NCBI GenBank assembly: GCA_039654915.1
Contig: CM077599.1
Span: 80,692,001-80,756,000 of the forward strand
Length of the DNA stretch: 64,000 bases
Source: Aquilaria yunnanensis
Lineage: Eukaryota; Streptophyta; Magnoliopsida; Malvales; Thymelaeaceae
Direction: 5' to 3'
The number at the start of each line of letters is the position of its first letter. The first letter of the stretch is position 1. A program made the translations under genes and the position numbers. This document shows, piece by piece, positions 32,215 to 63,300 of this stretch. The notes beneath the pieces are model-generated. The model was not told where the DNA came from. It did no database searches and was given only the letters and a program-made list of their open reading frames with translations.

Positions 32215-32760
32215 AATTGTCTAACTTTTATTTTTGTTGTAATTAATTAACTTAATTAAACTTGGCTAACTTTTATTTATTGTTGTTAATTAATTAACTT
32301 AATTAAACTTGGCTAACTTTTATTTATTGTTGTTAATTAATTAACTTAATTAAACTTGGATAACTTTTATTATTGTTGTTAATTAATTAACTTAATTAAA
32401 CTTGGCTAACTTTTATTATTGTTGTTAATTAATTAACTTAATTAAACTTGGCTAACTTTTATTTTTGTTGTTAATTAATTAACTTAATTAAAATTGACTA
32501 ACTTTTATTTATTGTCGTTAATTAAATAACTTAATTAAACTTGGCTAACTTTTATTATTGTTGTTAATTAATTAACTTAATTAAACTTGGCTAACTTTTA
32601 TTATTGTTGTTAATTAATTAACTTAATTAAACTTGGCTAACTTTTATTATTGTTGTTAATTAATTAACTTAATTAAACTTGGCTAACTTTTATTTATTGT
32701 TGTTAATTAATTAACTTATTTAAACTTGGCTAACTTTTATTATTTTTGACTTAATTAACT
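32215..32760 (+). repeat. 47-bp tandem repeats in LTR A (about 11 copies)
   Basis: The unit contains TTAATTAATTAACTTAATTA, then AACTTGGCTAACTTTTATT and a short ATTGTTG spacer, with a period of about 47 bp. Copies differ by single bases and by TTATT length. The same array in LTR B (about 48065-48300) has only about five copies, so it is unstable in length. Confidence 0.85.
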
Positions 32761-33170
32761 TTTATTATTATTGTTAATAATTAATTTAATTAAATTTTGC
32801 TAACATTTATTATTTTTTTTTCAAGTGGATGGCCAAAAAGCCCCACTTTATTAATTTTTCTTTATATAATTTAATTTATTTAATTAACCTTTTACCCATA
32901 AATAAAAAAAACTAAAAGAAGATTCTTTTGTAATTAATTATTAAGGCTAATAAAAATTTAAAAGCCAATTATTTTTATTTTGGAATACATTTTTTATTAT
33001 TTATTTAAAGATAACAAAGTTAACTTTTTGTTAAAATTAATAAACAAACATGATTAAATCAATTCTTTTTAAATATTTTTTTAATAATGATATTTAAAAT
33101 AAAAATTCAAGAAAAATCCAATTAAAATTAATAACTAATTAAATAATTAAAATTTAACAAAAATTAAAAA

Positions 33171-34439: not shown

Positions 34440-34707
34440 GTATCAAATTTTATCCAAATAAATTACCAAAATCCACATTTTCGACTAATTCAGTTAAAAT
34501 ATCTAAATTAACTGAAAAGTTTTAAAAGCAAAGTAAAACAAAATTAAAATCAACTAAGGTGCCAATTTTTGGGCGTTTTAACAAAGTTGTTTTAACGTAA
34601 CCGTACTCCCGAACCCCCGAACTCTCACAGACCATATTTTAGGTGACCAATCGACCTAGGTGAAACCGATTGGTGGCGACTCCAGAAAACCCGACGTTGC
34701 CACAGCT

Positions 34708-44135: not shown

Positions 44136-45498
44136 TGAAGAAATTTTCAAACAGAAGGGGAGAAGTGGATACAGGGTTACCAAAGTTTATTTGATCAAAG
44201 TTGTCAAAGAGAGCTTTCTTCTCTTACACTTTCATTATCTATCTGTACCCAAGATTTTCATATTACCCATAAATAAAAAGCCAATTTTCTTTAACTTACC
44301 TTAGATTCTCACGTTCAAAATGCTAAAGTCGCTTCTATCCAGTTCTTTTCCTTCAAATCTCACATTCCTACTAGCCTTAAGTGTGCAATAAATTATGACT
44401 TTTGAAGGAAGAATAGTAATAATTAAAACTTAGAAAAAACAAAGACCGTAGATTACTTTGATAAGCTTTATGAATTAAAACAGGTAAGATTGAGGTCCTG
44501 CTTTGCGAGCGGCACAGAACATAGGCTAACAAAGAAGAAGGAGTAACAAATCTTTGGGAGATAGCCTTGGTGGTAGCTTGAATGATTGCTTCAGAAGTCT
44601 TAACACGTCCATGTCAGCAAGAAAGAATCATACTCACGAATATCTCAACAGGGACAATTATCCATAGAGGCATAAAGTACGAGGCGGACATTAAGGAAAT
44701 TGAAGCCAAAATTTAAGAACAAATCAAGGAAAGAAGATTTTTGAAAAGAGTTAGGCTTTTGAGACAATGGACAATAGCTGGAAAGCGAGACAATGAACAA
44801 CAGCTGGAAAGCGAGACAATGAACAACAGCTGGAAAGCGAAACAATGGACAACAGTTGGAAAGCATAAAGAGATTCAACGATAGAAGGCAATTACAAAGA
44901 GGATCCAGTAAAGCAAAGATATAAAAAAATAAATCCATCAGTTACACATGCTCTGCATTCATGCATTTCACATCATGCATGCATGGCATACAGAACAAGG
45001 ATCAAATGGGAAGCGTATCCACCGCACAGTCACAGCAGTATAAGCTGACGTCTCAGTGACATCCGTTTTTACCAATCTACCGCTGGATGCACAGCTGATA
45101 TAGTGGACCCAGCCCCATCAGCAATTCAAGGATAAAGTAGACAATATTGTCAAAATCCTGGTAATCAATTCAATAATCGAGGCTACACCGGGATGGACAG
45201 AATTGACGCCAGCTTAGCGGTATCCAAGATAAGAAATAGCTATGGTCAAAGATAAGCGCGGATATCGAGAAATATTGTCGTCGAAAGCAGACAATGGATT
45301 CAATAATCAAGGACTGGATCAATGTCATGCCTGATGAGATATCAAAGATAAGAAATATCTATGATACTAAAATAAAGTAGGATCCACTTTTCCGGTTAAA
45401 CGGCGGATACGGTACTCCGTGACTCTCAAGTCGGTTCTCTCAGTTGCCCATAATAACTGATTCCTTCACCCCTTCTTTCTTTTACTTCCTCCTATAAA
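44136..45498 (+). other. Post-pol spacer of element A
   Basis: This region contains a purine tract (AGAAGGGGAGAAG) just after the pol stop and a 26-bp direct repeat at 44763-44868. No gene is seen. It is matched by 55407-56699 in element B on the other strand. Confidence 0.6.
44763..44868 (+). repeat. 26-bp tandem repeat, four copies, specific to element A
   Basis: The unit GACAATGAACAACAGCTGGA with AAGCGA following occurs four times with few changes. The corresponding site in element B (about 56047-56076) has one copy. It is a recent local expansion. Confidence 0.8.
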
Positions 45499-45819
45499 AT
45501 GGATCCTACTTTTTCCGCCTTGCGAAAGTATTTCCCTTCTCTCCCAATGAACATCCTAAAAAAGATCTACCAAGTTCGCTGTGAACGATTAAGAGCTCTG
45601 ATGCATAAAGGAATCCCTGAAGATGTGCGGTGGTTAATTGAAGCTAAGGTTCGTCTGGCAGGTGAAATCCCAGAGGCATTTGTGTCTTACATGCCTGGTC
45701 TTGGCAAAAGTTCTTATGCCAGAAAAAGAAGAGCGAAAAGATTACAAGTCTGCCATAAATGTGGTAGATGGACTTGTAAGACTAGGTGTCGTTCTTTAGG
45801 AATGATCTCCAATAATCGA
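45499..45819 (+). pseudogene. Zinc-finger cargo ORF of element A, truncated by element B
   Basis: The first 107 codons match the 182-residue cargo ORFs of element B. They include a helical N-terminus (SALRKYFPSLPMNILKK), the basic motif GKSSYARKRRAKR and a CX2CX4CX3C finger (CHKCGRWTCKTRC). The reading frame then runs into the LTR of element B at 45820, so the C-terminal half is missing here and should continue beyond the other end of B. Confidence 0.8.
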
Positions 45820-48800
45820 TGTGGCAACGTCGGGTTTTCTGGAGTCGCCACCAATCAGTTTACTTAGGTCGATTGGTCACCTAAAATATGGTCTGCGAGA
45901 GTTCGGGGGTTCGGGAGTACGGTTACGTTGAAACAACTTTGTTAAAATGCCCAAAAATTGGCACCTTAGTTGATTTTAATTTTGTTTTACTTTGCTTTTA
46001 AAAAAATTTCAGTTAATTTAGATATTTTAACTGAATTAGTCGAAAATGTGGATTTTTGGTAATTAAGTTGGATAAAATTTGATACTTCCGAACCATGGAC
46101 TCTGCCGAGTCATTTGGACACGGAAGATTTTTGATTCCGAACCATGGACTCTGCCGAGTCATTTGGACACGGAATTTGGTGAAATTTTAAACAATTTTAT
46201 CCATATTGTAAAAATATGGATTTTTATCTTTTTATTTAATTTATTTATTTTAAAAAAATTGATATTTTCCAAACCGTAGATCCTGCCGGATCATCCGGAT
46301 ATGGAAATTGATTTACTTAATCGTAATTATTTAATTCCTGAAATTAATTTTTTAAAAGGTAATGATTTTTAATACTAACTAAAAATTTGTCTTTATATTT
46401 TTACTTCTTTTTTTCTCTTTCTTTTTTTTTCTTTTTTTTTTTTTTATCTTTTATCTTATTTTTCTTATCTTCTTTTTTTTTTATTTCTTTTTTTTATTTC
46501 TTTTTTTATCTTTCTTTTATTTCTTTTTTTTATCTTTCTTTTATTTTTATCTGATTTTTTTCTTAATTTATAAAAGAATTCAAAAGCAATTAATTTTTTT
46601 ATTTAATAAGAAGTTAATTTAAAGGAATCAAAGAGTTTAAAAAAAATAAAATAAAAAAAAATCTTTGATCATGGTACGGGGCGTTGTTACTCAGCCAGAC
46701 CCTCTTCACCAGGTGAAGCAGCTCAAAAGCGGGCACGAGACAGTTTCCAGCCAATATACCATGAACTAATTTTTTATAAAAATAATTATTTAATACCAGG
46801 ATTTTATTTATTTACCAAAGAAAACAAAAGAGTTGAAAATAAAATCTTAATTCTCATGTATTTGATTTTTTATTTAAAAGATTAACCAAAATTAATTATT
46901 CAATAAAATAATAAAGAAAAGATTTATATAAAGAAAGTCTTGATATTTATACATATTTATTTTTTTAAGCTTATTTTTTTTTATTTGATAAAAGATGAAC
47001 CAAGAAAGTAATTATTTAATCAAGGTTTTGTTTATTTAATGAAGAAAACTAAAGATTTATATGTATATTTTAAAAATAAAAGTGAAGCCTTAATATTTTA
47101 TTTAATAAAAGGTGAATCAAAAAGTAAACAAAACTTTATTTATTTAATGATGAAACCAGAAATTTATATATATATTTCAAAAATAAAATAAAAATCTTAA
47201 TATTTGTTTGTTTTATTTTTGATAAAAAAATTAAGCAAAAATGATTATTTAATAAGGAAAATAAAGGTAAAGTTTTGATATTTATATAATTTATTTTGAA
47301 AAAAGATTAAAGAAATCAAAGATTTATATGTATAAAAAGTTTTTGATATTTATATGATTTTTTTTATGTTCTTTTTGTTTGCTAAAAGATTTTTATTATT
47401 ACCTTTATTTGAAATCATTTGAATAAAATTTTATTTAATAAAGGAAACAAAAACAAAAAAAAAATGTTATATCTTTTTTTTTATTATTTTGAAAGGAATA
47501 AGTAAAATATTAGCCCAAGAAAATTTTTACTCCTTTATTCTTTTTATTAATAAAGAAACCAAAAAAATTATATTTTATTATTTTGCTGGATAAAGAGATA
47601 AATAAAAAATATTAGTCCAAAGTTTTTTTTATTTTTTTAATAATAAAGGAAAATTTATTTATATACTTTATTTAAAAAATATTTTCCAAGCCATGGATCC
47701 TGGCGGATCATTTGGACATGGAATTTAATTTCTTTTTTATATTTCATTATTAATTATTAATTAGAAAAAAAAACATCACTTTTAAAGATGTATTTAAAAA
47801 AATAATTTGTATTTATTTATTTATTTATTTCATTATGTTTGTTTATTAAAAGGAATAAAAACTTTGTTTCAAAATAAAAAAAAATAATTTTTATTAGCCT
47901 TTAGGAAATTATTCACATAAAATTCCTTTTTTTAATCTTTTAGTTAAAAAAAAATAATAATAAAGTGGGGCTTTTTGGCCATCCACTTTAATAACACAAT
48001 AATAAAAGTTAGCACAATTAATATAGTTAGTTGTTAATAACAATAAAAAAAGTTAGTAAAGTTAGATTAACAATTAACAACAATAATAAAAATTAGCCAA
48101 GTTTAATTAAGTCAATTAATTAACAACAATAATAAAAGTTAGCCAAGTTTAATTAAGTTGATTAATTAACAACAATAAATAAAAGTTAGCCAAGTTTAAT
48201 TAAGTTAATTAATTAACAACAATAATAAAAAGTTAGCCAAGTTTAATTAAGTTAATTAATTAACAACAATAAATAAAATTTAGCCAAGTTTAATTAAAGT
48301 TAGATGTTAATAACAAAAAATAAAAGTTAGCAAGTTAGTTGTTAGTAACAATAAAAATAAAAGTTAGTTATGTTAACAATTAATAATAATAATAATAATA
48401 ATAACAATAAAAGTTAGATGGTTAGTAAGTTAGATGGATTAGTTGTTAATAACAACAATAAAAAAGAAGGTTAGTAATAATAACAATAATAAACAAATGA
48501 ATAAATAAATAAATAATTAAAAGAGTTAATTAGTTTTCTGCAAAGACAAAAGAAAAAGGTTAGTGATCAAAGTGAAACAGATTGAAAAGTTAATGAACTA
48601 AATAGGGATTTTACCCTAAAAATTGGATTTTGAACTCTCAGGAAGACGGACGCGTCGGGCGCAAAAGGGGGGGTGGGCTGGCTGTGCACAGAGGAGGAAG
48701 AGGAAGGGCTGGGGGCTGCAGGCGCGGTGGCGACGGCGGCGCTAGCGCGGCGGCTGGAGCGGCGACCGGCAGGGCGGCGGACGGCGAGCACGGCGGGGGC

Positions 48801-49655
48801 GGAGGGAGAGAAAAAGAAGGAGAGAAAAGGAAGGGACGGCGGCGGGCAGGGCGGCGGACGACGACGTGGGGCACGGCGGCGGCGGTGAGGCAGCACGGCG
48901 ACGGGACGGCGGCAGGCGGCGACGGCGTGGGGCACGGCGTCGGCGGCGTGGGGGTGAGGAGAGAGAGAGAGAGAGACGGAATCAGAAGAGAAAAATTTTG
49001 GCTTTCTGGGGAAGAAGTGAAGAGGGCTAGGGGCTAAGGGCTGTAATTTTATTTTTTTTTAAAACAGAGCTCTAAGTTTTTTTGCTATTTTTTTCTGTAT
49101 TCAGCACAAAATTTGGGGGGCTATTTATAGAGGAAGTTTAGCTGAACTGTTGATGGATAAATTAATAAAAAATTTCAAACTTATCTCTTAAATTGGTAAA
49201 ATGACAGTTTTAGTCCTTTACGTCTCTCAGCCTCTGGATAAGTTCCTGAAGCTTCTGATTTTGACAATTTTGTCATTTTCTGTCAATTTGAGCCAAAAAC
49301 GTCGGCAGGCTCAAAATTTTATGTGACAAACTGCCAAATGCTCCTGGAACTTTCAGAATTTGTCAATTTTGCCTGAAACTTCTTAATTTTGTCATTTTTA
49401 CCTCAAACTTTTAAATTTTGTCATTTTTATGGAGTTTTCTTTTTTTTCTTTCAAACATACACATATACACACATATATCAAATCTTCACAAAACAAAACA
49501 AAAAAAAAAAAAATATATATATATTTTAAACTAATTAAAAAAAATTTAGTAATAATAATAACAATAATAATAATAATACATTTTTTTATTTAATTTTTTT
49601 ATTGAATTTTTTTTTTAAATTTATTTTAATGGCCGGACGAAATTGGGTGTCAACA
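45820..49655 (-). repeat. 3' LTR of element B
   Basis: This is the reverse complement of the LTR at 30932-34704 and has the same features: TG and CA ends, TATA box at 49122-49129, GC-rich block at 48640-48960, 47-bp repeats at about 48065-48300, conserved island at 46662-46760 and stem-loop repeats. The purine tract at 49656-49668 on the internal side shows that this is a 3' LTR of an element whose body lies to the right. It joins element A in the middle of the cargo ORF. The bases ATCGA (45815-45819) are the expected TSD copy. Confidence 0.88.
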
Positions 49656-49668
49656 GCTGCCCCCCTTT
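49656..49668 (-). promoter_or_regulatory. Polypurine tract of element B
   Basis: AAAGGGGGGCAGC on the minus strand directly abuts the TGTTGACACC end of the LTR. This is the position where plus-strand DNA synthesis is primed, and it fixes the orientation and 3' end of element B. Confidence 0.8.
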
Positions 49669-49759
49669 GCATGCTTCATGGGACATGATGTATGCAAAGT
49701 TAGTTACCAAATTTCGTCCAGCTTAGCTAGGCATTGAAAACCTTCTCGCCGCCTAAACT

Positions 49760-51385
49760 CTGAGGTTTAAGGAAAGGTCCTTAGAACATCTAACGATAGG
49801 AAAGGTTCTATCGTTGTAAGATGGACTGAATGATTGATTGTTTGTTTGAGGTTTAAGGAAAGGTCCTTAGAACCTCTAACGATAGGAAATGTTCTATCGT
49901 TGTAAGATGGACTGAATGACTGATTGTTTGTTTGAGGTTAAGGAAAGGTCCTTAGAACCTCTAACGATAGGAAAGGTTCTATCGTTGTAAGATGGACTGA
50001 ATGATTGATTGTTTGTTTGAGGTTTAAGGAAAGGTCCTTAGAACCTCTAACGATAGGAAAGGTTCTATCGTCGTAAGATGGACTGAATGATTGATTGTTT
50101 GTTTGAGGTTTAAGGAAAGGTCCTTAGAACCTCTAACGATAGGAAAGGTTCTATCGTTGTAAGATGGACTGAATGATTGATTGTTTGTTTGAGGTTAAGG
50201 AAAGGTCCTTAGAACCTCTAACGATAGGAAAAGTTCTATCGTTGTAAGATGGACTGAATGATTGATTGTTTTTTTTTTAGGTTTAAGGAAAGGTCCTTAG
50301 AACCTCTAACGATAGGAAAGGTTCTATCGTTGTAAGATGGACTGAATGATTGATTGTTTGTTTGAGGTTTAAGGAAAGGTCCTTAGAACCTCTAACGATA
50401 GGAAAGGTTCTATCGTTGTAAGATGGACTGAATGATTGATTGTTTGTTTGAGGTTAAGGAAAGGTCCTTAGAACCTCTAACGATAGGAAAGGTTCTATCG
50501 TCGTAAGATGGACTGAATGATTGATTGTTTGTTTGAGGTTTAAGGAAAGGTCCTTAGAACCTTTAACGATAGGAAAGGTTCTATCGTTGTAAGATGGACT
50601 GAATGATTGATTGTTTGTTTGAGGTTAAGGAAAGGTCCTTAGAACCTCTAACGATAGGAAAGGTTCTATCATTGTAAGATGGACTGAATGATTGATTGTT
50701 TTTTTTTTTAGGTTTAAGGAAAGGTCCTTAGAACCTCTAACGATAGGAAAGGTTCTATCGTTGTAAGATGGACTGAATGATTGATTGTTTGTTTGAGGTT
50801 TAAGGAAAGGTCCTTAGAACCTCTAACGATAGGAAAGGTTCTATCGTTGTAAGATGGACTGAATGATTGATTGTTTGTTTGAGGTTAAGGAAAGGTCCTT
50901 AGAACCTCTAACGATAGGAAAGGTTCTATCGTTGTAAGATGGACTGAATGATTGATTGTTTGTTTGAGGTTTAAGGAAAGGTCCTTAGAACCTCTAACGA
51001 TAGGAAAGGTTCTATCGTTGTAAGATGGACTGAATGATTGATTGTTTGTTTGAGGTTAAGGAAAGGTCCTTAGAACCTCTAACGATAGGAAAGGTTCTAT
51101 CGTTGTAAGATGGACTGAATGATTGATTGTTTGTTTGAGGTTTAAGGAAAGGTCCTTAGAACCTCTAACGATAGGAAAGGTTCTATCGTTGTAAGATGGA
51201 CTGAATGATTGATTGTTTGTTTGAGGTTTAAGGAAAGGTCCTTAGAACCTCTAACGATAGGAAAGGTTCTATCGTTGTAAGATGGACTAATGATTGATTG
51301 TTTGTTTGAGGTTTAAGGAAAGGTCCTTAGAACCTCTAACGAGAGGAAAGGTTCTATCGTTGCAAGATGGACAGAATGATTGATT
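49760..51385 (-). repeat. 86-bp tandem array of paired hairpins, about 19 copies
   Basis: About 19 units of 85-87 bp run between the LOG-like ORF and the 3' LTR of element B. Each unit contains AACGATAG-(8 nt)-CTATCGTT, a perfect 8-bp stem, and next to it a second stem of about 12 bp between GAGGTTTAAGGA and TCCTTAGAACCTC. Variants (GAGGTT with or without an extra T, and a T-run variant at about 50268 and 50700, five units apart) suggest higher-order duplication. Plant Tat-type elements are known to carry tandem repeats in the 3' untranslated region that can seed satellites. Confidence 0.92.
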
Positions 51386-51575
51386 GTTCTCGAGGCAAAG
51401 GTTCCATCCTTAAAACCTCGGATTGATTGATTGATTTCGAGGCAAAGGTTCCATCCTTAAAACCCCGATGATGAAAATTGATTGTTTTCAAGGCAAAGGT
51501 TCCATCCTTAAAACTCCAATGATTAAAATTGATTTTGAGGCTAAGGAGCTTTCCTTAGGACCTCGAGCGAAATTT
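51386..51575 (-). repeat. Diverged shorter hairpin repeats beside the 86-bp array
   Basis: Three units of about 50 bp share GGCAAAGGTTCCATCCTTAA flanked by GAGG and CCTC. A fourth at 51536-51563 (GAGGCTAAGGA...TCCTTAGGACCTC) also folds into a hairpin. They look like older or independently evolved relatives of the 86-bp unit. Confidence 0.65.
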
Positions 51576-52116
51576 ATATGAAAACAATTGAAATTGGAAT
51601 AATTTTCTTCGAAAGTATGAATTTTCATAATAGGTGAGTGCAAAAATTTACACTTCGATAAGATGAGTGAATCTTGATGATGACAATAACATTGACAAAT
51701 TATGTAAAGGGAACGGATGTTTGGAATCAATATTCAAGGTTCATCTAATATTTTCTTCAGTAAATATAGATTCCCTTGTGAGATATGTCATCCGAATAAG
51801 GTTAAAACTTAACTACCCCAAAATGTTATGCCTAGTAGATCTAATAGGATGCGTCTCAAGAGTAACAAAAATTACTCTTTACTCAACCATTCCAACCTAA
51901 AGGCATTGTCCTATGGTTCTAATATCAGCATGGACGAAACTATCTTATAAAAAAAGAAATTCCTTGAAAAGAAAAACTGAAACGCGAAAGAAAATGCTGA
52001 TAATAAAACTAAAGGACAAGAAAAACGGATCAGATCGCTTCTTTCTTCCACAATACTTCAACAGGGTGAGTAGAGGACCATTATGGGAGTGAACTGGTCG
52101 GGAAAGACTGTCGTGT

Positions 52117-52710
52117 CTAGTCTATCTGAATCATTGCTGGATCTGGTTCAGGAATAAAAGCTTGTATTTTATCTAGCAATTCTTCAGCAGTTGTTGCGGA
52201 TATTATGATTCGCCGTGCCACTCTTGATATGAAATTCTTCTACATAGCATAATCCATAAAAGCTATCAGACCTGTAAAGAAATTGTTAACATTTAAAAGC
52301 CCAATGGGTTTCTTATGCAAATTAAGTTGGGCCATGGAAGCAATTTGAAAGACTTCTCCCAACGTGCCAAAACCACCTGGTAGAGCGATAAAAGCATCAG
52401 CATTTAAAAGCATTTGTAACACACGCTCTTGCAAATTTTTAACCACTAATTCTTCTCCAATCGTGCCCCCAGAAACAAATTTCAAAGGTCCAGGGATGAT
52501 GCCCAAAACTTGACTTCCTCCTAAAGATGCTGCTGATGCTACACCTCCCATTAATCCGACACTACCTCCTCCATAAACTAAATGTATTTTTCGCTCAGCT
52601 AATACTCTACCCAAATGGTTGGCTGCCTTTAAATACTCTTCATCTTTTCCAGGAAAAGCCCCAGAAAATACACAAATACTTCGGAATTTACGAGTTGGGG
52701 TTTTCTCCAT
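52117..52710 (-). pseudogene. LOG-like cytokinin riboside 5'-monophosphate phosphoribohydrolase inside element B
   Basis: LOG enzymes release active cytokinin bases from their nucleotides. Starting at ATG 52710 (MEKTPTRKF), the frame shows CVFSGAFPG, VYGGGSVGLMGG, the nucleotide-binding LGIIPGPL region and the diagnostic LPGGFGTLGE, which fits the family motif PGGxGTxxE. A TAG at 52240-52242 interrupts it after 156 codons. The homologous C-terminus (AEELLDKIQAFIP) continues in frame to a TAG at 52117, about 197 codons in all, close to the usual 200-220. The ORF is in the same sense as the retroelement, between the zinc-finger ORFs and the hairpin array. I see no intron in it, which would fit capture of a processed transcript. 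The premature stop removes only the last fifth, so activity is doubtful but not excluded. Confidence 0.82.
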
Positions 52711-52740
52711 TCCTATCCTTATCCTTGTGAGAAAAGAGGA

Positions 52741-52800
52741 TATATTTATAGAGATGAAGAGATAAGGCAATAATTTTATTTTCAAGAGTGGATACATTAT
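52741..52800 (-). promoter_or_regulatory. TATA-containing module upstream of the LOG-like ORF
   Basis: The sequence TTCATCTCTATAAATATA matches the modules before the two downstream zinc-finger ORFs, and an AATAATGTATCC block lies about 40 bp further upstream. The TATA box (52741-52750) is only 31-40 bp before the ATG at 52710, so the leader would be very short. Function is inferred. Confidence 0.5.
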
Positions 52801-53240
52801 TGCCAGCTATACACAGTAGTCACGAGTATGACTCTGGTCAGGTATGGGTACACTATCGTTAAAAGAGGAGGAAAATTTTCAAAATAGCTGCTAGCATGTA
52901 CAGTAGTCACTACTGTAGCTTAAGTCAGGAATAGGTATGTGATTGTTGGAAGGGAAGGAAAATTTCAAAAGTGGCAGCTATATACAGTAGTCCGTGTCAG
53001 GAGTGGGTACATTATTGCCAAAGGGGAGGAAAATTTCAAAAGCGACAGCTAGCACGTACAGTAATCGTAACTATGGCTCATGTCAGGAGTGGATACATTA
53101 TCGCTGAAAGGGGAGGAAAATTTCAAAAGCGATAGCTAGTACGTACAGTAATCGTGACTTTGGTTCACGTCAGGAGTGGATACATTATTACCAAAAGGGG
53201 AGGAAAATTTCAAAAGCGACAGCTAGCACGTACGGTAATC
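52795..53240 (-). repeat. ~85-bp promoter-like repeats, about five copies
   Basis: Each unit contains GTCAGGAGTGGATACATTAT, GGGGAGGAAAATTTCAAAAG and GCTAGCACGTACAGTAATCG on the + strand. The TACATTATTGCC part is shared with the TATA module upstream of the ORFs, so this appears to be tandem amplification of promoter-proximal sequence ahead of the LOG-like ORF. Confidence 0.7.
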
Positions 53241-53297
53241 GTGACTTTGATCCTCGTCTTCCACTGGCTTTGCGTCCAGTAATGGCTTCAATGCTTT

Positions 53298-53846
53298 CTA
53301 TGAATCGGTGATTTGCATCTCATCTAGCTTTCTCACAAACTGGCAAACAGGGTCGTTTAGGGTCAGATTCCCAAGACTGTAACGATCTCGTTCTTTTTGG
53401 AAAATTATCCATAATCCAACAACCTCAAATTGCACTATTCCGCAAGAATGCGCTTCAAGAACCTCTCGAATATCTTCTAGAGATTCCTTACGCAAGCCAT
53501 TCTTAATGAATCTTATTCTATCATTACGATTTCTGGTGATCACTCCTGGAGCACGACATTTATTGCCGCAAATCTACCATCCACAATTATGACAAACGCC
53601 TAGCCTCTTTGCTCTTCTTTTTTTGGCATAAGCGCTTTTACCAAAGCCGGGCATACGGGGAAAGAACGCTTCGGGAACTTCACCAGCTGAACGAACCTTA
53701 GCTTCAATTAGCCACCGCACATTATCAGGAATGCCTTTGTGCATAAATACTCTGAATCGTTCACATCTAGCTTGATAAATCTTTTTAAGAACATTTATTG
53801 GGAAGGAAGGAAAATACTTTCGTAGGGCGGAAAGAGAAGACTCCAT
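53298..53846 (-). pseudogene. Zinc-finger cargo ORF, copy 3 (one nonsense codon)
   Basis: From ATG 53846 this encodes 182 codons colinear with copy 2. It has the basic GKSAYAKKRRAKR motif and the zinc finger, but TAG at 53574-53576 falls inside the finger. An in-frame ATG at 53861 would add five residues. A TATA box (53905-53912) in the shared module lies about 60 bp upstream. Confidence 0.8.
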
Positions 53847-53904
53847 TGATGAAGGAGGCAAAGAAAGAAATTAGTGATTGTAGGAAACGAAAATAACTAA
53901 CACA

Positions 53905-53970
53905 TATTTATAGTGATGAAAGGGATAATGCGTTAATTACACTTACAGAAGCAAGTACATTATTGTCAAA
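53905..53970 (-). promoter_or_regulatory. TATA-containing module upstream of cargo copy 3
   Basis: TTCATCACTATAAATATG is preceded by TTATCCC and, about 40 bp upstream, AATAATGTACTTGC. The same order of blocks occurs before copy 2 and the LOG-like ORF. Confidence 0.55.
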
Positions 53971-54062
53971 AGAAAAGACAAATGACAGCTTATATGTACA
54001 GCAATCATGACTGTGGCTCTCATCTTTCACTGATTTATATCTAGTAATGGCTTCAATGCCTT

Positions 54063-54611
54063 CTATGAGTCGAGGACTTGCTTCCTATCCAGTTTTCTTA
54101 CAAGCTGGCAGACAGGGTCGTTTACAGTCACATTCCCAAGACTGTAACGGTCTCGTTCTTTATGGTAAGTCCTCCACAATTTGACAATTTGACCTTGCAC
54201 TTTTCCACAAGAATGCGTTTCAAGAGTCTCTCGGATATCTTCCAGAGATTCCTTACGCAGGCCATTCTTAATGAATTTTCTTTTATCTTCACGATTTGTG
54301 GAGATGTATCCTAAAGAGCGACATTTAGTATTACAATTCCATCGCCCACATTTATAACACACGCCTAGTCTCTTTGCTCTTCGCCTTTTGGCATAACGGC
54401 TTTTACCTAAACCGGGCATGCGGGGCATAAATGCATCTGGAACTTCACCCGCCAGACGGACCTTAGCTTCAATTATCCACTGCACATTATCGGGAATGCC
54501 TTTGCGTGTAAAAACTCTGATTCTTTCACATCTAGCAAGGTAGATCTTTTTAAGGACTTTTATTGGAAGGGAAGGAAAGTATTTTCGCAGTGCAGAAAGA
54601 GTAGAATCCAT
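54063..54611 (-). CDS. Zinc-finger cargo ORF, copy 2 (intact, 182 residues)
   Basis: This small basic protein has no function established from sequence. Residues 1-60 are probably helical (SALRKYFPSLPIKVLKKIY). At about 68-85 GLGKSRYAKRRRAKR is a strongly basic stretch, followed by CYKCGRWNCNTKC, a CX2CX4CX3C finger. The order G-x-G-(K/R)-S-x-Y-A, Arg-rich run, Cys finger resembles the cysteine-rich nucleic-acid-binding proteins of carlavirus-like plant viruses (Pfam Viral_NABP, by memory). Some of these suppress RNA silencing. The C-terminal half (DKRKFIKNGLRKESLEDI onward) is of unknown type. It is the only one of the three copies without a stop and is preceded by a TATA box at 54692-54698, about 80 bp upstream. 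Confidence 0.8.
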   Translation of the reverse strand: MDSTLSALRKYFPSLPIKVLKKIYLARCERIRVFTRKGIPDNVQWIIEAKVRLAGEVPDAFMPRMPGLGKSRYAKRRRAKRLGVCYKCGRWNCNTKCRSLGYISTNREDKRKFIKNGLRKESLEDIRETLETHSCGKVQGQIVKLWRTYHKERDRYSLGNVTVNDPVCQLVRKLDRKQVLDS

Positions 54612-54691
54612 TGATGAGAAAAGAATTTGAGAGATGATGGAAAGGAATTAGTTATTGAAGGAAACTTAGATAACCGACTGGAAGAACATGC

Positions 54692-54745
54692 ATTTATAGC
54701 GATGAAATGGATAACGTGTCGATTACACTTACGGGAGCAAATACA
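54692..54745 (-). promoter_or_regulatory. TATA-containing module upstream of cargo copy 2
   Basis: TTCATCGCTATAAATGC is preceded by TTATCCA and, about 40 bp upstream, AATAATGTATTTGC. The TATA-to-ATG distance of about 80 bp suits a normal plant promoter with a leader of about 50 nt. Confidence 0.6.
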
Positions 54746-54857
54746 TTATTAAAAGAAAAATGGAAAATTTTAAATATGATAAATTGTATGTACAGTGATT
54801 GTGACTGTGACTCACATCTTCCACTGGTTTTACGTCCAGTAACGGGATTAATGGCTT

Positions 54858-55406
54858 CTATGAGTCGAGGATTTGCTTCCCATCCAGTTTTCTTACAAGC
54901 TGACAAATAGGGTCGTTTAACGTCAGATTCCCGGGACTGTATCGTTCTTGTTCTTCATGAAAAATGCTCCATAAATCGAGAAGTTCACGTTGCACGGATC
55001 CACAAGAATGCGTCTCAAGAGTCAATTGGATATCATCCAATGAGTCCTTACTCAGGCCATTCTTAATGAATCGTATTTTATCTTCTCAATTATCAGAGAT
55101 CATCCCTAAAGAACGACATTTAGTATTACAGGTCCAGCGTCCGCATTTATGACAGACGCCTAGTCTCCTCGCTCTTCGCTTTTTGGCATAAGAGCTTTTG
55201 CCTACACCAGGCATGTGAGACACAAATGCGTCTGGGATTTCACCTGCCAGACGAACCTTAGCTTCAATTAACCACCGCACATCTTCAGGGATTCCTTTAT
55301 GCATCAGAGCTCTTAATCATTCACAGCGAACTTGGTAGATCTTTTTGAGGATGTTCATTGGGAGAGAAGGAAAATATTTTCGCAAGGCAGAAAAAGTAGG
55401 ATCCAT
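54858..55406 (-). pseudogene. Zinc-finger cargo ORF, copy 1 (two nonsense codons)
   Basis: This is 182 codons from ATG 55406, the most similar to the single copy seen in element A. TGA at 55317-55319 and TGA at 55086-55088 interrupt it. The basic motif (GKSSYAKKRRARR) and finger (CHKCGRWTCNTKC) are kept. It lacks the TATA module found before copies 2, 3 and the LOG-like ORF. It is the first of the array, so it probably represents the ancestral position. Confidence 0.8.
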
Positions 55407-56699
55407 TTTCTAGGAGAAAGTAAAAGAAAGGAGGGAGGAAATGATCAGTTATTATGGGCAACTGAGAGAACCGACTTGAGAGTCACGGAGTACCGTATCC
55501 GCCGCTTAACCGGAAAAGTGAATCCTACTTTATTTTGATGTGATAGATATTCCATCCAGCTGACGTCGATTCAGTCCTTGATTATTGAATCCATTGTCCG
55601 CTTTTGACGAATTTTCAACGACAATATTTCTTGATGTCTGCCTTATCTTTGACGATAGCTATCACTCATCTTGGATGCTGCTAAGCTGGCATCAATTCTG
55701 TTCTTTTAGGTGTAGCCTCAATTGCCAGGCTTTTGACGATATTGTATGCTTTATCCTTGGATTCCTGATGGGGCTGGGTCCAGCGTATTAGCTATGCGTC
55801 CAATTAGTAAGAGCTGATGTCATTAAGATCTCAGCTTATACTGCTGCAATCATGCTGCGGACATGCTTTTCATTTGATCCCTGTTATGTAAAAGCCATGC
55901 ATGCATGATGTGAAATGCATGAATGCAAGGCATGTGTAACTGATGTTTTTTTTTTTTTTAATCTAGCTCTTCATGTCTTTGCTTTACTTTACTGGATCTT
56001 CTTTGTGATTTCCTTCTCGGACTATTATTGAATCTCTTTATGCTTTCCAGCTGTTGTCCATTGTCTCAAAAGCCCAACTCTGTTCAAAAATCCTCTTTCC
56101 TTGCCTTATTTTTGAATTTTGATCTCAATTTTCTTTAATGCCCGCCTCATATTTTATGCTTCTCTGGATAATTGTCCCTGTTGAAATATTCGTGAGCATG
56201 ATTCTTTCCTGCTGACATGGACATGTTAAGACTTCTGAAATGATCATTCAGGCTACCACCAAGGCTATCTCCCAAAGATTTGTTACTCCTTCTTCTTTGT
56301 TAGCCTATGTTCTGTGCTGCTCGCAAAGCAGGACCTCAATCTTACCTGTTTTAATTCATAAAGCTTATCAAAGTAATCTACGGTCTTTGTTTTTTTTCTA
56401 AGTTTTAATTATTACTATTCTTCCTTCAAAAGTCACAATTTATTGCACACTTAAGGCTAGTAGGAATGTGAGATTTGAAGGAAAAGAACTGGATAGAAGC
56501 GACTTTAGCATTTTGAACGTGAGAATCTAAGGTAAGTTAAAGAGAATTGGCTTTTATTTATGGGTAAAAGAATATGAAAATCTTGGGTACAGATAGATAA
56601 TGAAAGTGTAAGGGAAGAAAGCTCTCTTTGACAACTTTGATCAAATAAACTTTGGTAACCCTGTATCCACTTCTCCCCTTCTGTTCGAAAATTTCTTCA
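55407..56699 (-). other. Post-pol spacer of element B
   Basis: It is homologous to 44136-45498 of element A with one copy of the 26-bp unit. A purine tract sits just after the pol stop. No gene is seen. Confidence 0.6.
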
Positions 56700-59600
56700 T
56701 TATGCAAAGTATTTTTTTACTGCATCCGAATTTACTGGCTTCAGTAATTCTCGTCCATCCATTTCTGTCAGAATTAGTGCCCCTCCTGAAAATGCTTTCT
56801 TCACGACATATGGCCCGTCATAATTTGGTGTCCATTTTCCTCTTGAATCATGTTGCATGGGTAAAATTTTCTTGAGCACTATGTCACCTTCATGAAATTG
56901 TCGTGGGCGAACCTTTTTGTTGTAAGCACGAATCATCCTTCTTTGATAAAGTTGCCCATGGCAGAGGGCTATCATTCTTCTTTCATCAATTAGATTTAAT
57001 TGCTCGTATCTAGCTTTGACCCATTCTGCTTCTCCTAATTGAGTATCCATTAGTACCCTTAATGAAGGAATTTCAACTTCGATGGGCAATACAGCCTCCA
57101 TACCGTATACCAGAGAAAAAGGTGTTGCTCTAGTAGAAGTACGGGTAGAAGTTCTATAAGCATGCAGTGCAAAAGGTAACATCTCATGCCAGTCCTTGTA
57201 AGTGACGATCATCTTTTCAACAATTCTCTTGATATTTTTATTGGCCGCTTCTATTGCACCATTCATCATCGGTCGATAAGGTGCTGAATTGAGATGCTTG
57301 ATTTTGAATTGCCGGCATAAAGTCTGCATCATTGCATTATTCAGGTTCGTGGCATTGTCTGAGATGATACACTCTGGCGGTCCATAGCGACAAATGATTT
57401 CTTTCTTAATGAACCGGCATACCACCTTTTGAGTTACGCTTGCATAAGACACAGCTTCTACCCATTTAGTAAAGTAGTCAATTGCAACTAGGATGAATTT
57501 GTGACCATTGGAAGCTTTAGGGGTAATCGCTCCAATAACATCGATTCCCCACATGGCAAAAGGCCAAGGTATTGCTGTTACATTAAGAGGAACAGGTGGA
57601 GCTTGGATCTTGTTGGCATATATTTGGCATTTGTGACATTTTCTTACGTGATTGACGCAATCACTTTCCAATGTGAGCCAATAGTAACCAGCCCTCATTA
57701 TTTGTCTTGCCATGGTATGACCACTAGTGTGTGCTCCACATATTCCAGAATGAACTTCTTCCATGATCTTTCGTGCTTCATGAGTATCTACACAGCGAAG
57801 TAGCATCGAGTCTGGGGTTTTCTTGTAAAGTATGTCTAGGTTTAAAAGAAAACCCATTGACAATCTTTGTAGAAATTTCTTGTCATTTTCTGATACTTCT
57901 GGTGGATATACTCTTTCTTGGAGGTATTTCTTGATATCGTGATACCAAGGCTTTCCATCCAATTCTTCTTCGATGCTCATGCAATAAGCTGGAGAATCTA
58001 TTATTCTCATCTCGAACACAGGAGTATGCTCGGGGTCACTGATCTTGTACATAACAGCCAAAGTAGCTAAAGCATCCGGTATTTGATTATCTTCCCTTGG
58101 AAGATGATGGAAGCTTATACTGTTGAATTTTCGAGCCAAGTCTAGTATGAGCTTTTGGTAAGGGATCAATTTTGAATCCCTTGTCTCCCATTCTCTGTTG
58201 ATTTGATATATGACTAATGCGGAATCCTCATAAACTCGGAGATCTCGCACTTTCAATTCCAGTGCCATTTGGAGTCCCATAGCACATGCCTCATACTCTA
58301 CTATATTGTTGGTACAAGGAAATGTAATTTTTGCTGTAAGAGGGAATTGCTCTCCACTTGGAGAGATGAGTATGGCTCCAATCCCTTGTCCCAAAGCATT
58401 AGATGCTCCATCGAATGCCATTTTCCATGTTTCATCATCTTTAGAGACTTCTTGTTCTATTGTCATTATATCTCCATCAGGAAACTCCATTTTCATTGGC
58501 TCATAATCATCCAATGCTCTATCAGCCAGATATTCAGCAATCACACTCCCTTTTACAGCCTTTTGGGTGACATACTGTATGTCGTATTCAGACAACAGCA
58601 TTTGCCATTTTGCGATCCTGCCTGATAAAGCTGGTTTTTCAAAAATGTACTTAATGGGATCAGTCTTGGAGATTAGCAATGTGGTGTTGTTGAGCATGTA
58701 GTGTCGTAGTCGGTGTGCTACCCATGCAAGGGCACAACAGGACTTTTCTACTATTGAGTATTTCGCTTCATATGTGGTAAGCTTCTTGCTCAAATAGTAA
58801 ATTGCATGCTCTTTCTTGCCTGTCTCATCACGTTGACCCAATACGGATCCTAATGAAGAATCCTGTATGGATAAATATAGAATCAACGATTCTCCAGATC
58901 GGGGTGGTACCAAGACTGGTGGATTTGATAGATATTGCTTGATTTTCTCGAATGCTTCTTGGCATTCGTTATTCCACTCGATCGGATTGTTCTTCTTCAG
59001 TGATTTGAAAAGAGGTTCACACTTGGATGTCAATTGTGAAATGAACCTTGCTATGAAGTTGATTCTGCCCAGAAAACTTCTTACTTGTTTTGGAGTCTTC
59101 GGGGGTTGCATTTCTTGTATTGCTTTGACTTTACTCGGGTCAACTCGAATCCCATCCTTGCTGACCATGAAACCCAATAACTTTCCTGAAGAGGCTCCAA
59201 AAATACATTTGGCAGGATTCAACTTCAGTTGATATTTGCGAAGTCTATCGAATAGTTTTCTTAGCACTTTTAGATGCCCCTTAGCAGTGAAAGTTTTGGC
59301 GATCATGTCGTCTACATATACTTCAATTTCTTTATGCATCATGTCATGGAATAATGCAACCATGGCTCTTTGATATGTAGCACCAGCATTCTTTAACCCA
59401 AAAGGCATCACCTTGTAGTAGAAGGTACCCCAAAGGGTTATAAAGGCAGTTTTTATCATATCATCTGGATCAAGTTTGATTTGATTGTATCCAGAGAAGC
59501 CATCCATGAAGGAAAAATAGGAGTTTCCTGCGGTATTATCCACCAGCGTATCAATGTGAGGAAGTGGGAAGTTATCTTTAGGACTGGCTTCGTTCAATGG

Positions 59601-60098
59601 CCGGTAGTCCTGACAAACTCTTAGTTTCCCGCTTTCTTTCTTTTCGACTGGAACAATGTTAACCACCCATTCTGTATATTCAGCGACCCCAAGGAATCCT
59701 GCATCCCACAGCTTTCGAATCTCATCTTTTACTCTTAAGATTAGATCCGGCTTTAATCTTCGTAACTTTTGTTTGACAGGCTTCGCCCCAGGTTTCAAGG
59801 GTATTTTGTGTAGTACTATGTCTGAGCTTAAGCCAGGCATATCTTGGTATGACCAAGCAAACACATCCATATATTCTTTCAATAAGTGGACTAATTCTTC
59901 TTTTTCTTCAGGAGGGAATAGAGTGCCAATCTTGACTTCTTTTACATTCTGACTGTCTCCCAAGTTAAATGCCTCAGTTGGTTCTTGACTTGTTGCTCTT
60001 TCTTTTTCATCTCGCTCGATCATTTTTAATAGCTCAGGAGATATTTGAAGATCTTCGTCATCCGAGTCGGTAGTGTTTACAGGATTATCAAAGTTCAT
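56700..60098 (-). CDS. Pol of element B: RT, two RNase H domains, integrase
   Basis: This 1132-residue ORF is the same length as that of element A and differs from it at only scattered residues. RT keeps VYVDDM, the archaeal-type RNase H keeps AFDGAS, EYEA and DSALVI, and integrase keeps the HHCC finger and Asp-Asp-Glu residues (GIDVIG, SDNATN, GAIEAAN). With the intact gag-pro upstream and the conserved putative intron, this copy could encode a complete Gag-Pro-Pol. Confidence 0.93.
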   Translation of the reverse strand: MNFDNPVNTTDSDDEDLQISPELLKMIERDEKERATSQEPTEAFNLGDSQNVKEVKIGTLFPPEEKEELVHLLKEYMDVFAWSYQDMPGLSSDIVLHKIPLKPGAKPVKQKLRRLKPDLILRVKDEIRKLWDAGFLGVAEYTEWVVNIVPVEKKESGKLRVCQDYRPLNEASPKDNFPLPHIDTLVDNTAGNSYFSFMDGFSGYNQIKLDPDDMIKTAFITLWGTFYYKVMPFGLKNAGATYQRAMVALFHDMMHKEIEVYVDDMIAKTFTAKGHLKVLRKLFDRLRKYQLKLNPAKCIFGASSGKLLGFMVSKDGIRVDPSKVKAIQEMQPPKTPKQVRSFLGRINFIARFISQLTSKCEPLFKSLKKNNPIEWNNECQEAFEKIKQYLSNPPVLVPPRSGESLILYLSIQDSSLGSVLGQRDETGKKEHAIYYLSKKLTTYEAKYSIVEKSCCALAWVAHRLRHYMLNNTTLLISKTDPIKYIFEKPALSGRIAKWQMLLSEYDIQYVTQKAVKGSVIAEYLADRALDDYEPMKMEFPDGDIMTIEQEVSKDDETWKMAFDGASNALGQGIGAILISPSGEQFPLTAKITFPCTNNIVEYEACAMGLQMALELKVRDLRVYEDSALVIYQINREWETRDSKLIPYQKLILDLARKFNSISFHHLPREDNQIPDALATLAVMYKISDPEHTPVFEMRIIDSPAYCMSIEEELDGKPWYHDIKKYLQERVYPPEVSENDKKFLQRLSMGFLLNLDILYKKTPDSMLLRCVDTHEARKIMEEVHSGICGAHTSGHTMARQIMRAGYYWLTLESDCVNHVRKCHKCQIYANKIQAPPVPLNVTAIPWPFAMWGIDVIGAITPKASNGHKFILVAIDYFTKWVEAVSYASVTQKVVCRFIKKEIICRYGPPECIISDNATNLNNAMMQTLCRQFKIKHLNSAPYRPMMNGAIEAANKNIKRIVEKMIVTYKDWHEMLPFALHAYRTSTRTSTRATPFSLVYGMEAVLPIEVEIPSLRVLMDTQLGEAEWVKARYEQLNLIDERRMIALCHGQLYQRRMIRAYNKKVRPRQFHEGDIVLKKILPMQHDSRGKWTPNYDGPYVVKKAFSGGALILTEMDGRELLKPVNSDAVKKYFA

Positions 60099-60129: not shown

Positions 60130-60313
60130 CTGCATTATTCAGAGGAAAAAAAAAATGGCAAGAATAAGATGGATGCAAACTGGTACTTTATTTATAGTGT
60201 GCATAAATCACAACTTTATTGGAATAAAAAGCAATAACTAAAAGGTTCACTTAAACAAAGACTACACCCTATTGATTGAACCTTTCTTTAGGAGGTTTTT
60301 ACTATTGGATTAC
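60130..60313 (-). other. Putative intron between protease and pol in element B
   Basis: The donor (CCAAA|GTAATCC style, G at 60313) and acceptor (TGCAG, ending at 60130) match those in element A. Removing 184 nt joins gag-pro and pol in frame. Conservation of both sites and phase in two copies supports real splicing. Confidence 0.75.
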
Positions 60314-63300
60314 TTTGGAAAGCTTTCGATTATAACAGGCAGTTCTATCGCCTCCCAATTGTTCAGCACATCCCGTGGGCCACAAGGTTGAATGAGCTCC
60401 TCATCTTCAGGTGAATCACTGATGATTGCTTGAATAGAAAGACTTTCAAAAGACTTGTTGATGTTGATGGTCAGCGCGCCTTCATTGTTATTTTTCGAAA
60501 TCAAACCACCACTCACGAACGTTTCGGTGATCTCTGGGACATCCAGATTTCTTTCCTGGAGAGGATGCCCTGTTAATCGTGCAATCCTCTTTTCTCTCTT
60601 TTCAGCTATTGCCTTCATTTTGTCATGTCTTGTCGGTGTGAAGCCTAGGCCGTATTTCCCTTCATTTGTGGTGATTTTCAATGGTTCTGTGATTCCTTGT
60701 AAATCTTGTCCCAGTCCTAACCCCGGTGAGTATCCTCCTTTTATCATGAGTTTGGCAACCATGCGACTTGTTTTAGAGATGCTAGGAATGGGTTCTTCTC
60801 CATATTCGCTGACATAAGCAGCATTGACAATTTCAAAAGACGTGAAGGAGCAATCAGGTATATTTTCATTGACTTCGACATATTGAGCATCCGCAGGTCT
60901 TGATAGCAGGATGTCTTCTTCAGCGAAGACCGTGATTATCTTTCCTTCAATAATGAATTTCATTTTCTGGTGTAATGAAGAAGGAATTGCTCCGGCCATA
61001 TGGATCCATGGTCTTCCCAGCAGGCAGGTATAAGATGGACAAATATCCATGACTTGGAATGTGATGTGGAAAAGACAGGGACCAATCCCTATTGGTAGCT
61101 CTATTTCTCCAACAACATCTCTCTTCGTTCCGTCAAATGCTCGAACAACAATATGACTGTTGTTGAGGTATGATGGGTCTAAACCAATCTTATGTAAGGT
61201 TTCGAGTGGCATTACATTTAGAGCTGACCCATTGTCGATAAGAACTCTGGCCATAATCCGATCTTTGTATTTGACCGAAATATGTAGGGCCTTAGAGTGA
61301 CCCCTTCCTTCTGCTGGTATCTCATCGTCAGTGAATGTGATGAGATTTTGTGCCGTGATGTTGTTGACGAGGTGGTCAAAATTGTTCACGGAGATATCTT
61401 GTTCAACATAAGCCTTATTCAGGACTTTGAGAAGAGCTTCTCGATGAGCATCAGAGCTTAGGAGTAATGAAAGTATGGAAATTTTTGCTGGCAGGCGGTT
61501 TAACTGCTCAACGATGCTGTATTCACTTTGCTTTATGAGTTTGAGAAACTCAGTAGCTTGCTCATCTGTTACTGCTCGAGGCGTCTCTTGCTCTTTAGAT
61601 GTATTTGTATCAAGAGATCCACTCGTCGTAACATTCTTATCTTGTTGGAGCTTGTTCATTTGCTCCGGAGAATAACACCGACCACTTCTAGTCATGCTTC
61701 CAACTTCTAACGGGGTTGATGTGATGTTAGAAGTGTAATCATAGCTCCATGGAACAGTTTTGTCCGATTTGTATGGGAATGGTTTTGGGACTTGAATTTT
61801 TAAAGGCTTAAGAGCAGGTTTTGAAATTGGTATGACCAGTGGTCTTGGCATAGCATTGAATTCTTGTTCTTTAATGATCACATTCACATCATCATCTTTA
61901 TCTGACATAAAAACGATGAGTTGGGAGGAGTCGATGAGACTTTGCAGTCTTTCACGAAATTCTGAGCATTTTTGGATAGAATGACTCTTACTGTCATGGA
62001 AGTTGCACCACTCTTCATTCTCGACTTCTCCATTTCCAAAAGAAGGCTTTCCCATGATAATCCCTTCTTTCACAAGGCATGAATATACATGCTTAAGAGG
62101 GGTTATGATATCGTTGACTGACTTCTTTGTCGGCCAGTGTTTTTCTATCATATTGACTGGTTTTGCTTGATGAGGCGGCAACGGATTGTGAGTGACGTTT
62201 GGCTCATCGGAAAAGTCCAACCACTTTGATTCGATTAATTGTTGGATTATACGTTTCAATGCTATGCAATTTTTCAGTCCGTGGCCCACGGTACCATCAT
62301 GATATGGGCAATTTATGTTAGGGTCATACCACCTTGGATACGGGGGTTCCAATGGCCTTGTAGGGATTGGGCGAATAAGTTGACTTTCGATGAGTTTTGG
62401 ATACAGCTCAGTGTAAGTCATGGGAATTGGTGCGAAGATTTCTCTTGGTCTTGGTGCAGGTACTGGAGGAGTTGGAACAGGTGGCCGTAACTGATTAGGT
62501 CTGTTGGGAGGATAATTGTTGGGTCTATTGGGAAGATAATCATTGGGCCTATTGGGAGGATAATCATTGGGCCTACTGGTAGGATAATAATTGGGCTTAT
62601 TGGCAGAATAGGATAGGCGAGGTCCGGTGGCCACAGTGCCCACGAAGGGAATCCCTCTTCCTCTTCCTATTTGTTGTATTTCTTCATCTTTTCTTCTGGA
62701 AGGTCCTCCTCTTTTCATAGGATCGCTAAAGGATTCAGTAATCTTCCCAGTCCTGATACCATGCTCGATCCTTTCTCCAGACATTACTACGTCGGAGAAG
62801 TTAGTTGCCGCATTGCCAATAAGTTTGTCATAATATGGGTATTTCAGTGTCTGGACAAACAAAGTGACCATTTCTCTTTCTGTCATGGGTGGCTGAACCT
62901 GTGCAGCTAAGTCCCTCCACCGCTGCGCATATTCCTTGAAAGTTTCTGGCTTTTTCTTCTCCATGTTTTGGAGAGTTTGGCGATCCGGAGCCAAGTCCAT
63001 AACGTGTTTATAGTTGCCGATGAAGGCCTGAGCAAGGTCATTCCAAGTTTTTATGTTCCTTGGACCTTGGCTTAGATACCACTGTAATGCTGATTTTGTG
63101 AGACTTTCCTGAAAAAGTGCGATCCACACCTTTTCATCTTTTGTGAGTGGTTGTAGTCTCCTTAGGAACAATGTGATGTGAGTGATGGGATCACTCGTTC
63201 CATCGTATTTCACGAAATCTGGCACCTTAAAATCTGAAGGGATTACGACGTCTGGCACTAAGCAGAGGTCATCCACCGAGAGAGATCCGAATATAGTGCC

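Follow-up and report, generated by a model that had tools for sequence, protein, structure and literature searches.

A candidate accessory-gene module of flexivirus-type nucleic-acid-binding proteins and a LOG-like enzyme in a high-copy Tat retrotransposon family of Aquilaria yunnanensis

The window analysed here is a 64-kb stretch of contig CM077599.1 (positions 80,692,001 to 80,756,000) of the Aquilaria yunnanensis genome, which was read as 842 Mb in 345 contigs. It contains two Ty3/gypsy long terminal repeat (LTR) retrotransposons of one family, element A on the plus strand and element B on the minus strand. The two share one cargo, arranged alike: a tandem array of three genes, NABP1 to NABP3, encoding a 182-aa zinc-finger protein related to the nucleic-acid-binding proteins (NABPs) of flexiviruses, followed by a LOG gene. 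We read this region, with a probability of about 0.55, as a selected accessory-gene module of a high-copy Ogre-like Tat family, one that works in a genomic parasite much as accessory genes do in plant viruses. In element B the cargo lies on the minus strand, all genes in sense, in the interval from the pol stop (56700) to the 3′ LTR, which starts at 49655:

55407–56699, minus strand: spacer between pol and NABP1, common to 19 of the 20 copies fetched at length
54858–55406, minus strand: NABP1, a 183-codon frame with two internal stops in B
54692–54699, minus strand: TATA motif before NABP2, present in 46/46 other copies
54063–54611, minus strand: NABP2, intact, 182 aa, viral NABP family
53906–53913, minus strand: TATA motif before NABP3, present in 46/46 other copies
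53298–53846, minus strand: NABP3, a 183-codon frame with one internal stop in B
52813–53249, minus strand: tandem repeats of ~87 bp before LOG, with homology to the NABP2 and NABP3 spacers
52744–52751, minus strand: TATA motif before LOG, present in 44/46 other copies
52118–52710, minus strand: LOG frame, 209 aa in intact copies; in B it contains an in-frame stop and its end is altered
51376–51557, minus strand: repeats of 47–51 bp adjoining the satellite
49761–51388, minus strand: 86-bp double-hairpin satellite, 19 copies

The three NABP frames of B are spaced 795 and 765 nt from start to start. NABP2 is the only uninterrupted cargo gene of B; NABP1, NABP3 and LOG are broken, and the end of LOG is altered relative to intact copies. 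Element A has an open LOG of 209 aa, broken versions of NABP2 and NABP3, and a NABP1 that B splits. Intact versions of every cargo gene are present elsewhere in the genome. The original prediction, made from the letters of the window, had described four extra sense open reading frames (ORFs) in B with promoter-like repeats and a hairpin satellite. The position, order and orientation of the genes hold, as do the promoter-like repeats (~87 bp) and the hairpin satellite (86 bp), but only NABP2 is open in B. Its picture of element B needs a further correction: B runs past the window and sits in element A, which has the same cargo.

By profile, the zinc-finger proteins of the window belong to the flexivirus NABP/CRP family. 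NABP2 matches Viral_NABP (PF05515) with 34.2 bits (curated cut-off 23) and Carla_C4 (PF01623) with 25.2 bits (curated cut-off 20.9). Both profiles are matched at E ≤ 0.01 by 41 of the 44 proteins in an alignment of NABP2 with 43 of its 113 database relatives (E ≤ 0.001). The conserved core of this alignment is a K/R-rich basic stretch followed by C-x2-C-x4-C-x3-C, the four cysteine columns being at least 90% conserved. The tandem array of the original prediction is real, whereas its 'zinc-finger' label proves too vague for proteins that match viral NABP families. Among viral relatives, the NaBP of sweet potato chlorotic fleck virus is an RNA silencing suppressor, and that of chrysanthemum virus B suppresses silencing weakly and acts as a transcription factor that causes hyperplasia (PMC12172455; here and below, statements from cited papers refer to the parts of their text available to us).

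The fourth cargo gene is clearly predicted to encode a cytokinin riboside monophosphate phosphoribohydrolase-like enzyme, in line with the LOG-like enzyme first suggested for this place. The LOG frame of B matches PF03641 (E 4e-24, 85.6 bits, cut-off 27) and the solved structure of an Arabidopsis LOG-type protein (E 2e-41). The motif PGGxGTxxE is found in this frame and in 109 of the 120 listed relatives, and the intact 209-aa frames are uninterrupted by introns. Among full-length LOG relatives, 80 of 86 have LxLxL within the last 10 residues (0.9% expected from shuffling) and 83 of 86 have a basic stretch ahead of it; the alignments to the two Arabidopsis LOG structures stop short of this tail. 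LxLxL has the form of an EAR motif, which recruits TOPLESS corepressors. As a trait of LOG in the window family this tail was rejected, all 18 intact LOGs of the family ending otherwise. Reevesia pubescens has several dozen LOG-like gene models, many with an LxLxL end, a pattern resembling an expansion of transposon-borne LOG.

NABP2, NABP3 and LOG are probably transcribed from putative internal promoters of their own, separately from the genomic RNA, because each of them follows a copy of one TATA-bearing spacer. The region before LOG is homologous to the spacers of NABP2 and NABP3 (best BLAST E 6e-17 and 3e-14, respectively) and is multiplied as the ~87-bp repeats. The motif CTATAAAT occurs no more than 130 nt from the ATG in 46/46 copies of NABP2, 46/46 of NABP3 and 44/46 of LOG; 0.013 occurrences per 130 nt are expected from the window. 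Tandem repeats close to the 3′ LTR are known from Tat elements. All three folded units of the 86-bp satellite give two hairpins (z −4.8, −7.3 and −5.8), and the satellite was not found in the stretch that holds the 3′ end of element A.

The family is a very abundant, recently active retrotransposon. A search of the genome with NABP2 gave 8948 unscored first-look candidates and, out of these, 150 scored matches, which are the best-scoring ones and hence biased; 50 of them, the window's included, are 100% identical and 142 are free of internal stops. NABP2 matches occur on all eight large contigs. Fifty loci picked by NABP2 similarity (L001–L050) were read and represent 46 distinct copies, the window's own not among them. 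The order NABP1-NABP2-NABP3-LOG is present in 45 of the 46; the stretch of the remaining copy, L040, begins too late to show NABP1, and in 26 of the ordered copies the stretch holds the LOG start only. Eighteen of the 20 copies fetched at length have one of each cargo gene, and the 3′ LTR is reached within the stretch in eight of the 20. Frames are intact in 37/45 copies for NABP1, 45/46 for NABP2, 44/46 for NABP3 and 18/20 for LOG. The cassette is present in subfamilies with 3′ ends and LTRs up to one quarter different.

A further sample, independent of the choice by cargo, was anchored on pol. The search with the integrase end gave 131 scored matches (first-look count 23705 unscored candidates), four of which were read for 2.4 kb downstream. 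In 4/4, pol is followed by the spacer and then by the NABP array. In one of these copies, L053, the first unit is equally close to NABP1 and NABP2 and a NABP3-like unit comes next, as if the first unit were the product of recombination between two NABP units. L036 has two additional NABP units, and L040 reads NABP2-3-2-3-LOG inside its stretch. Judging from these three copies, the NABP array gains and loses units by recombination.

Purifying selection appears to maintain all four cargo genes. The pooled ratio of non-synonymous to synonymous polymorphism (pN/pS) among intact copies is 0.14 for NABP1 (n = 37, excluding L040, whose best NABP1 match is its NABP2), 0.17 for NABP2 (n = 45), 0.31 for NABP3 (n = 44) and 0.18 for LOG (n = 18). 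The corresponding ratio of substitution rates (dN/dS) between A and B is 0.15 (0.07–0.30) for the NABP1 part, 0.12 (0.08–0.17) for pol and 0.18 for LOG, and between NABP paralogues inside B it is 0.20–0.37. The original prediction had named a shared cargo order and purifying selection as signs of a real system, and a one-off assembly as the opposite case. The comparison of order, run in part, found it in 45/46 cargo-anchored copies, with the NABP array in 4/4 pol-anchored ones, and the pN/pS range of 0.14–0.31 agrees with selection. A one-off assembly or artefact is ruled out by the cassette in 46 other copies.

The association of the two gene types is not confined to Aquilaria. Scoring of 8000 LOG matches gave 7968 relatives, and the joined model P0078 as query gave 251, of which 120 were listed. 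Twelve gene models in five species fuse NABP and LOG, with NABP first: P0078 in Rhamnella; P0106, P0243, P0256, P0257 and P0276 in Citrus x changshan-huyou; P0296 in Acer yangbiense; P0236, P0240, P0285 and P0297 in Orobanche gracilis; and P0295 in O. hederae. Six of the twelve (P0236, P0240, P0285, P0297, P0295 and P0243) pass the curated cut-offs for both parts, P0256, P0078, P0106 and P0296 for the LOG part alone, and P0257 and P0276 for neither; below the cut-off, the NABP part was identified by alignment to NABPs. We read the joined models as gene-caller fusions of neighbouring genes. Three contigs of at least 2 kb have identical size and source in both the NABP and the LOG lists, versus 0.04 expected (98 of 113 NABP and 79 of 120 LOG rows were used, the rows left out being mainly chromosome-size contigs). 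Three coincidences below 2 kb were disregarded in this count, since contigs of 799 and 1018 bp, the lengths of two of them, could not hold both genes. NABP and LOG distances over 10 pairs are correlated (r 0.70, P 0.0002; r 0.63, P 0.0016 minus a near-duplicate; P0078, P0106, P0240, P0257, P0276, P0297 and the 1386-bp contig pair left out), which could also stem from shared species history. To judge from these gene models and contigs, NABP-LOG pairing is widespread in eudicots.

In the mechanism that we propose, NABP, with its basic stretch directly before the Cys4 finger, would enter the nucleus, bind nucleic acid and weaken the small-RNA silencing directed at the element. Alternatively, it might control transcription, an activity described for a carlavirus relative. 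Both proposals for NABP are drawn from its viral relatives. LOG would raise active cytokinin locally, in the expressing cell, and this would favour dividing, meristem-like cells, from which new insertions would pass to the next generation. Silencing suppression together with local cytokinin is the function we infer, and each of the two would help new insertions to arise in dividing cells. The earlier comparison with viruses is apt for the kind of genes involved, although an infectious stage is not implied. How giant plant retrotransposons attain very high copy number despite RNA silencing is an open question, to which a selected pair of NABP and cytokinin enzyme, apparently with promoters of its own, would be a directly testable answer. 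The gene pair would also be a link between plant RNA viruses and retrotransposons. It would explain some plant gene models labelled 'hypothetical', 'viral nucleic acid binding' or 'LOG' as transposon genes, with consequences for annotation and for the number of genes assigned to the LOG family.

A number of observations weigh against this reading. A complete working cargo set is found in neither element of the window, three of four genes being broken in B, and NABP2 and NABP3 in A. The copies were chosen by their similarity to NABP2, which biases the sample, and the pol-anchored sample is small (n = 4). The pN/pS values come from intact frames alone and from copy pairs that share history and are not independent. 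Between A and B, NABP2 has a dN/dS of 0.57, a value compatible with post-insertion decay of A's broken NABP2. The TATA motifs are shared through descent, so that their copy counts are not independent either; CTATAAAT precedes NABP1 in only 1/46 copies; and the motif of LOG lies only 41–49 nt ahead of the ATG, with scant room for a leader. The predicted NABP structure is poor (pLDDT 63) and its search against viral structures gave no significant match (best E 0.055, low TM). The top 30 ranks of that search, none significant, comprise 26 small proteins that are flexivirus NABPs, silencing suppressors or the like, the p23 of citrus tristeza virus, and three unnamed proteins. Scans of viral_contigs with NABP2 and with the NABP alignment found no relative, and among solved structures there was no NABP relative, the two rows obtained being at chance level (E 0.59 and 0.65).

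Several other explanations were considered. Given that cargo genes are broken in both window copies and that LTR elements commonly capture genes (PMC7264820), the cargo might consist of passenger genes, captured sequences copied along without benefit. The pN/pS values of 0.14–0.31, on which we reject this account, the order kept in 45/46 copies and the presence of the same pair in distant plants make it very improbable. There is next to no chance that the region is an assembly artefact or an endogenous RNA-virus fragment that a single element received once. Cucumber does contain a sequence resembling a flexivirus replicase (PMC3136472), but here the cassette recurs in 46 distinct copies outside the window, each of the eight large contigs has matches, and other species have relatives, which refutes a single insertion. 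A more substantial alternative is that the NABPs serve the element's own RNA, as chaperones or by helping so long an RNA to be packaged or to leave the nucleus, while LOG acts on nucleotides or is kept for some other reason. It accords with a family that is nucleic-acid-binding by name and profile and with the great length of the elements (24.1 kb). The separate TATA-bearing spacers and the pairing with LOG suggest action in the cell instead, and viral relatives act as suppressors (PMC12172455); these points are not decisive, and we regard this explanation as unlikely.

The accessory-module reading can coexist with an origin of the module in another, Athila-like lineage, from which it would have reached the Tat family through recombination between retrotransposons. 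Two Rhamnella models, P0064 and P0241, fuse an integrase end with NABP, and the integrase end of P0241 is only 28% identical to that of B. It looks Athila-like. The cassette occurs in subfamilies with LTRs and 3′ ends up to a quarter different and is therefore not a very recent gain; such an origin seems to us doubtful, though not far-fetched. Only tentatively, and with the odds somewhat against it, do we extend the accessory-module reading to eudicot LTR retrotransposons at large. They would share a standing module in which a silencing suppressor of RNA-virus type, exchanged with flexiviruses, is coupled to a cytokinin-activating enzyme, often with the EAR-form LxLxL tail, and which disarms small-RNA silencing and keeps the host cell dividing. 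On this extended reading the flexivirus gene may even derive from a retroelement.

Parts of this arrangement have precedents. Gypsy elements of Citrus and Populus have already been described with a LOG-type (YgdH) domain, and plant mobile and G-patch domains are likewise on record for Gypsy elements (PMC9289625). These elements resemble ours in carrying a LOG-family domain, whereas NABP, a tandem cassette and internal promoters go unmentioned in the available text, and the words 'carlavirus' and 'nucleic acid binding' have no occurrence in PMC9289625. The same source describes orchid Gypsy elements with an m6A RNA demethylase ORF, likewise giant Tat elements that have captured an RNA-related gene, supposedly against control by the host; theirs is one cellular AlkB-type gene, whereas ours are a gene family of virus type and a hormone enzyme. 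Maize Grande (gene23, which has its own promoter) and Retand (TRP28) also carry an accessory gene after pol and ahead of the 3′ LTR, but these genes are antisense, and the available text does not connect them with NABP or LOG (PMC7264820, PMC11963269). According to a review, antisense extra ORFs lack similarity to viruses (PMC7264820). The anti-silencing VANC proteins of Arabidopsis VANDAL elements show that transposon genes can counter silencing, the role proposed here (PMC5735166, PMC10398659). Unlike our elements, VANDALs are DNA transposons. To our knowledge, VANC proteins are unrelated to NABP. The cysteine-rich NABPs of carlaviruses and allexiviruses, which are silencing suppressors, share with ours the Viral_NABP and Carla_C4 profiles and the basic stretch before the Cys finger; ours differ in being 182 aa long, tandem and resident in the DNA of a retrotransposon, and the same role is only proposed for them. 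NABP in retrotransposons goes unmentioned in the available parts of PMC11963269, PMC13317346 and PMC3136472. In our literature searches, whose coverage excludes most subscription journals, we came across neither a retrotransposon described with a viral-type NABP nor a NABP-LOG pair. The original prediction knew of no tandem family plus a cytokinin enzyme at this place; the LOG-type domain, taken singly, has a published precedent in Gypsy (PMC9289625).

The order of LTRs, gag and pol together with the 5-bp target duplication of B identifies the elements as Ty3/gypsy. A second RNase H precedes the integrase in the pol of both A and B; in pol, this extra RVT_3 domain (570–680) lies between RT_RNaseH (403–505) and rve (846–943). 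An extra RNase H at this place in pol is a hallmark of Ogre and Retand within Tat (PMC6317226), and because of this arrangement we assign the elements to Tat, as the Ogre/Tat label first given to B had anticipated. The elements further resemble the Ogre/Tat (OTA) superclade in an ORF1 upstream of gag, giant size and extra sense ORFs (PMC6317226). The ORF1 of element A matches DUF7745 strongly, while the plant mobile domain, a known Ogre domain in that source, scores 34.1 bits, just under the cut-off of 34.9. The family would be Ogre-like rather than Retand. This assignment is provisional and based on ORF1; the primer site, tRNA-Arg in Ogre, was judged by eye. Since the OTA survey took in extra ORFs from 250 codons upwards (PMC6317226), NABP (182) and LOG (209) would escape it.

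The sequence was read 19.8 kb past the window end, where both elements close. Their other features in the window are as follows:

30932–34704, plus strand: element A 5′ LTR
35324–37129, plus strand: element A ORF1 (DUF7745)
40737–44135, plus strand: element A pol, by domain profiles
45499–45819, plus strand: element A NABP1, 5′ part, cut by B
45815–45819, plus strand: target duplication ATCGA of B, second copy past the window
45820–49655, minus strand: element B 3′ LTR, starting TGTTGACACCC at 49655
49657–49669, minus strand: polypurine tract of element B, judged by eye
56700–60098, minus strand: element B pol ORF, 1132 aa, open; reverse transcriptase, RNase H, second RNase H (RVT_3), integrase
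60310–63624, minus strand: element B gag ORF, 1104 aa, open; Retrotrans_gag and G-patch domains

Element A also has gag, upstream of pol and after ORF1. Element B is 24,131 bp long, extends to 69950 and lies inside the NABP1 gene of element A, with ATCGA, a perfect 5-bp target duplication, on both sides; this nesting rules out A and B as a single inverted structure. The 5′ LTR of B (66129–69950, past the window) is 98.5% identical to its 3′ LTR. Beyond it follows the remainder of A, with the NABP1 end, NABP2, NABP3, LOG and then the 3′ LTR (74757–78499, 97.8% identical to the 5′ LTR). The outer flanks of A are AATCC and AACCC. The LTR pairs diverge (Kimura two-parameter) by 0.0087 in B and by 0.0132 in A, which agrees with the order that the nesting of B in A demands. 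A substitution rate of 1.3e-8 per site per year gives insertion ages of about 0.3 (B) and 0.5 (A) million years.

The LTRs of A and B are 14–28% different from each other. They contain A+T-rich tandem repeats of 46–47 bp (32179–32761 in A, 47988–48336 in B) and G+C-rich GCC/GGC stretches (31649–31899 in A, 48749–48953 in B). A 26-bp repeat occurs four times at 44761–44864, in the pol-NABP1 spacer of element A. Positions 1–30931 form an A+T-rich flank with some inverted repeats and zero ORFs of 150 aa or more.

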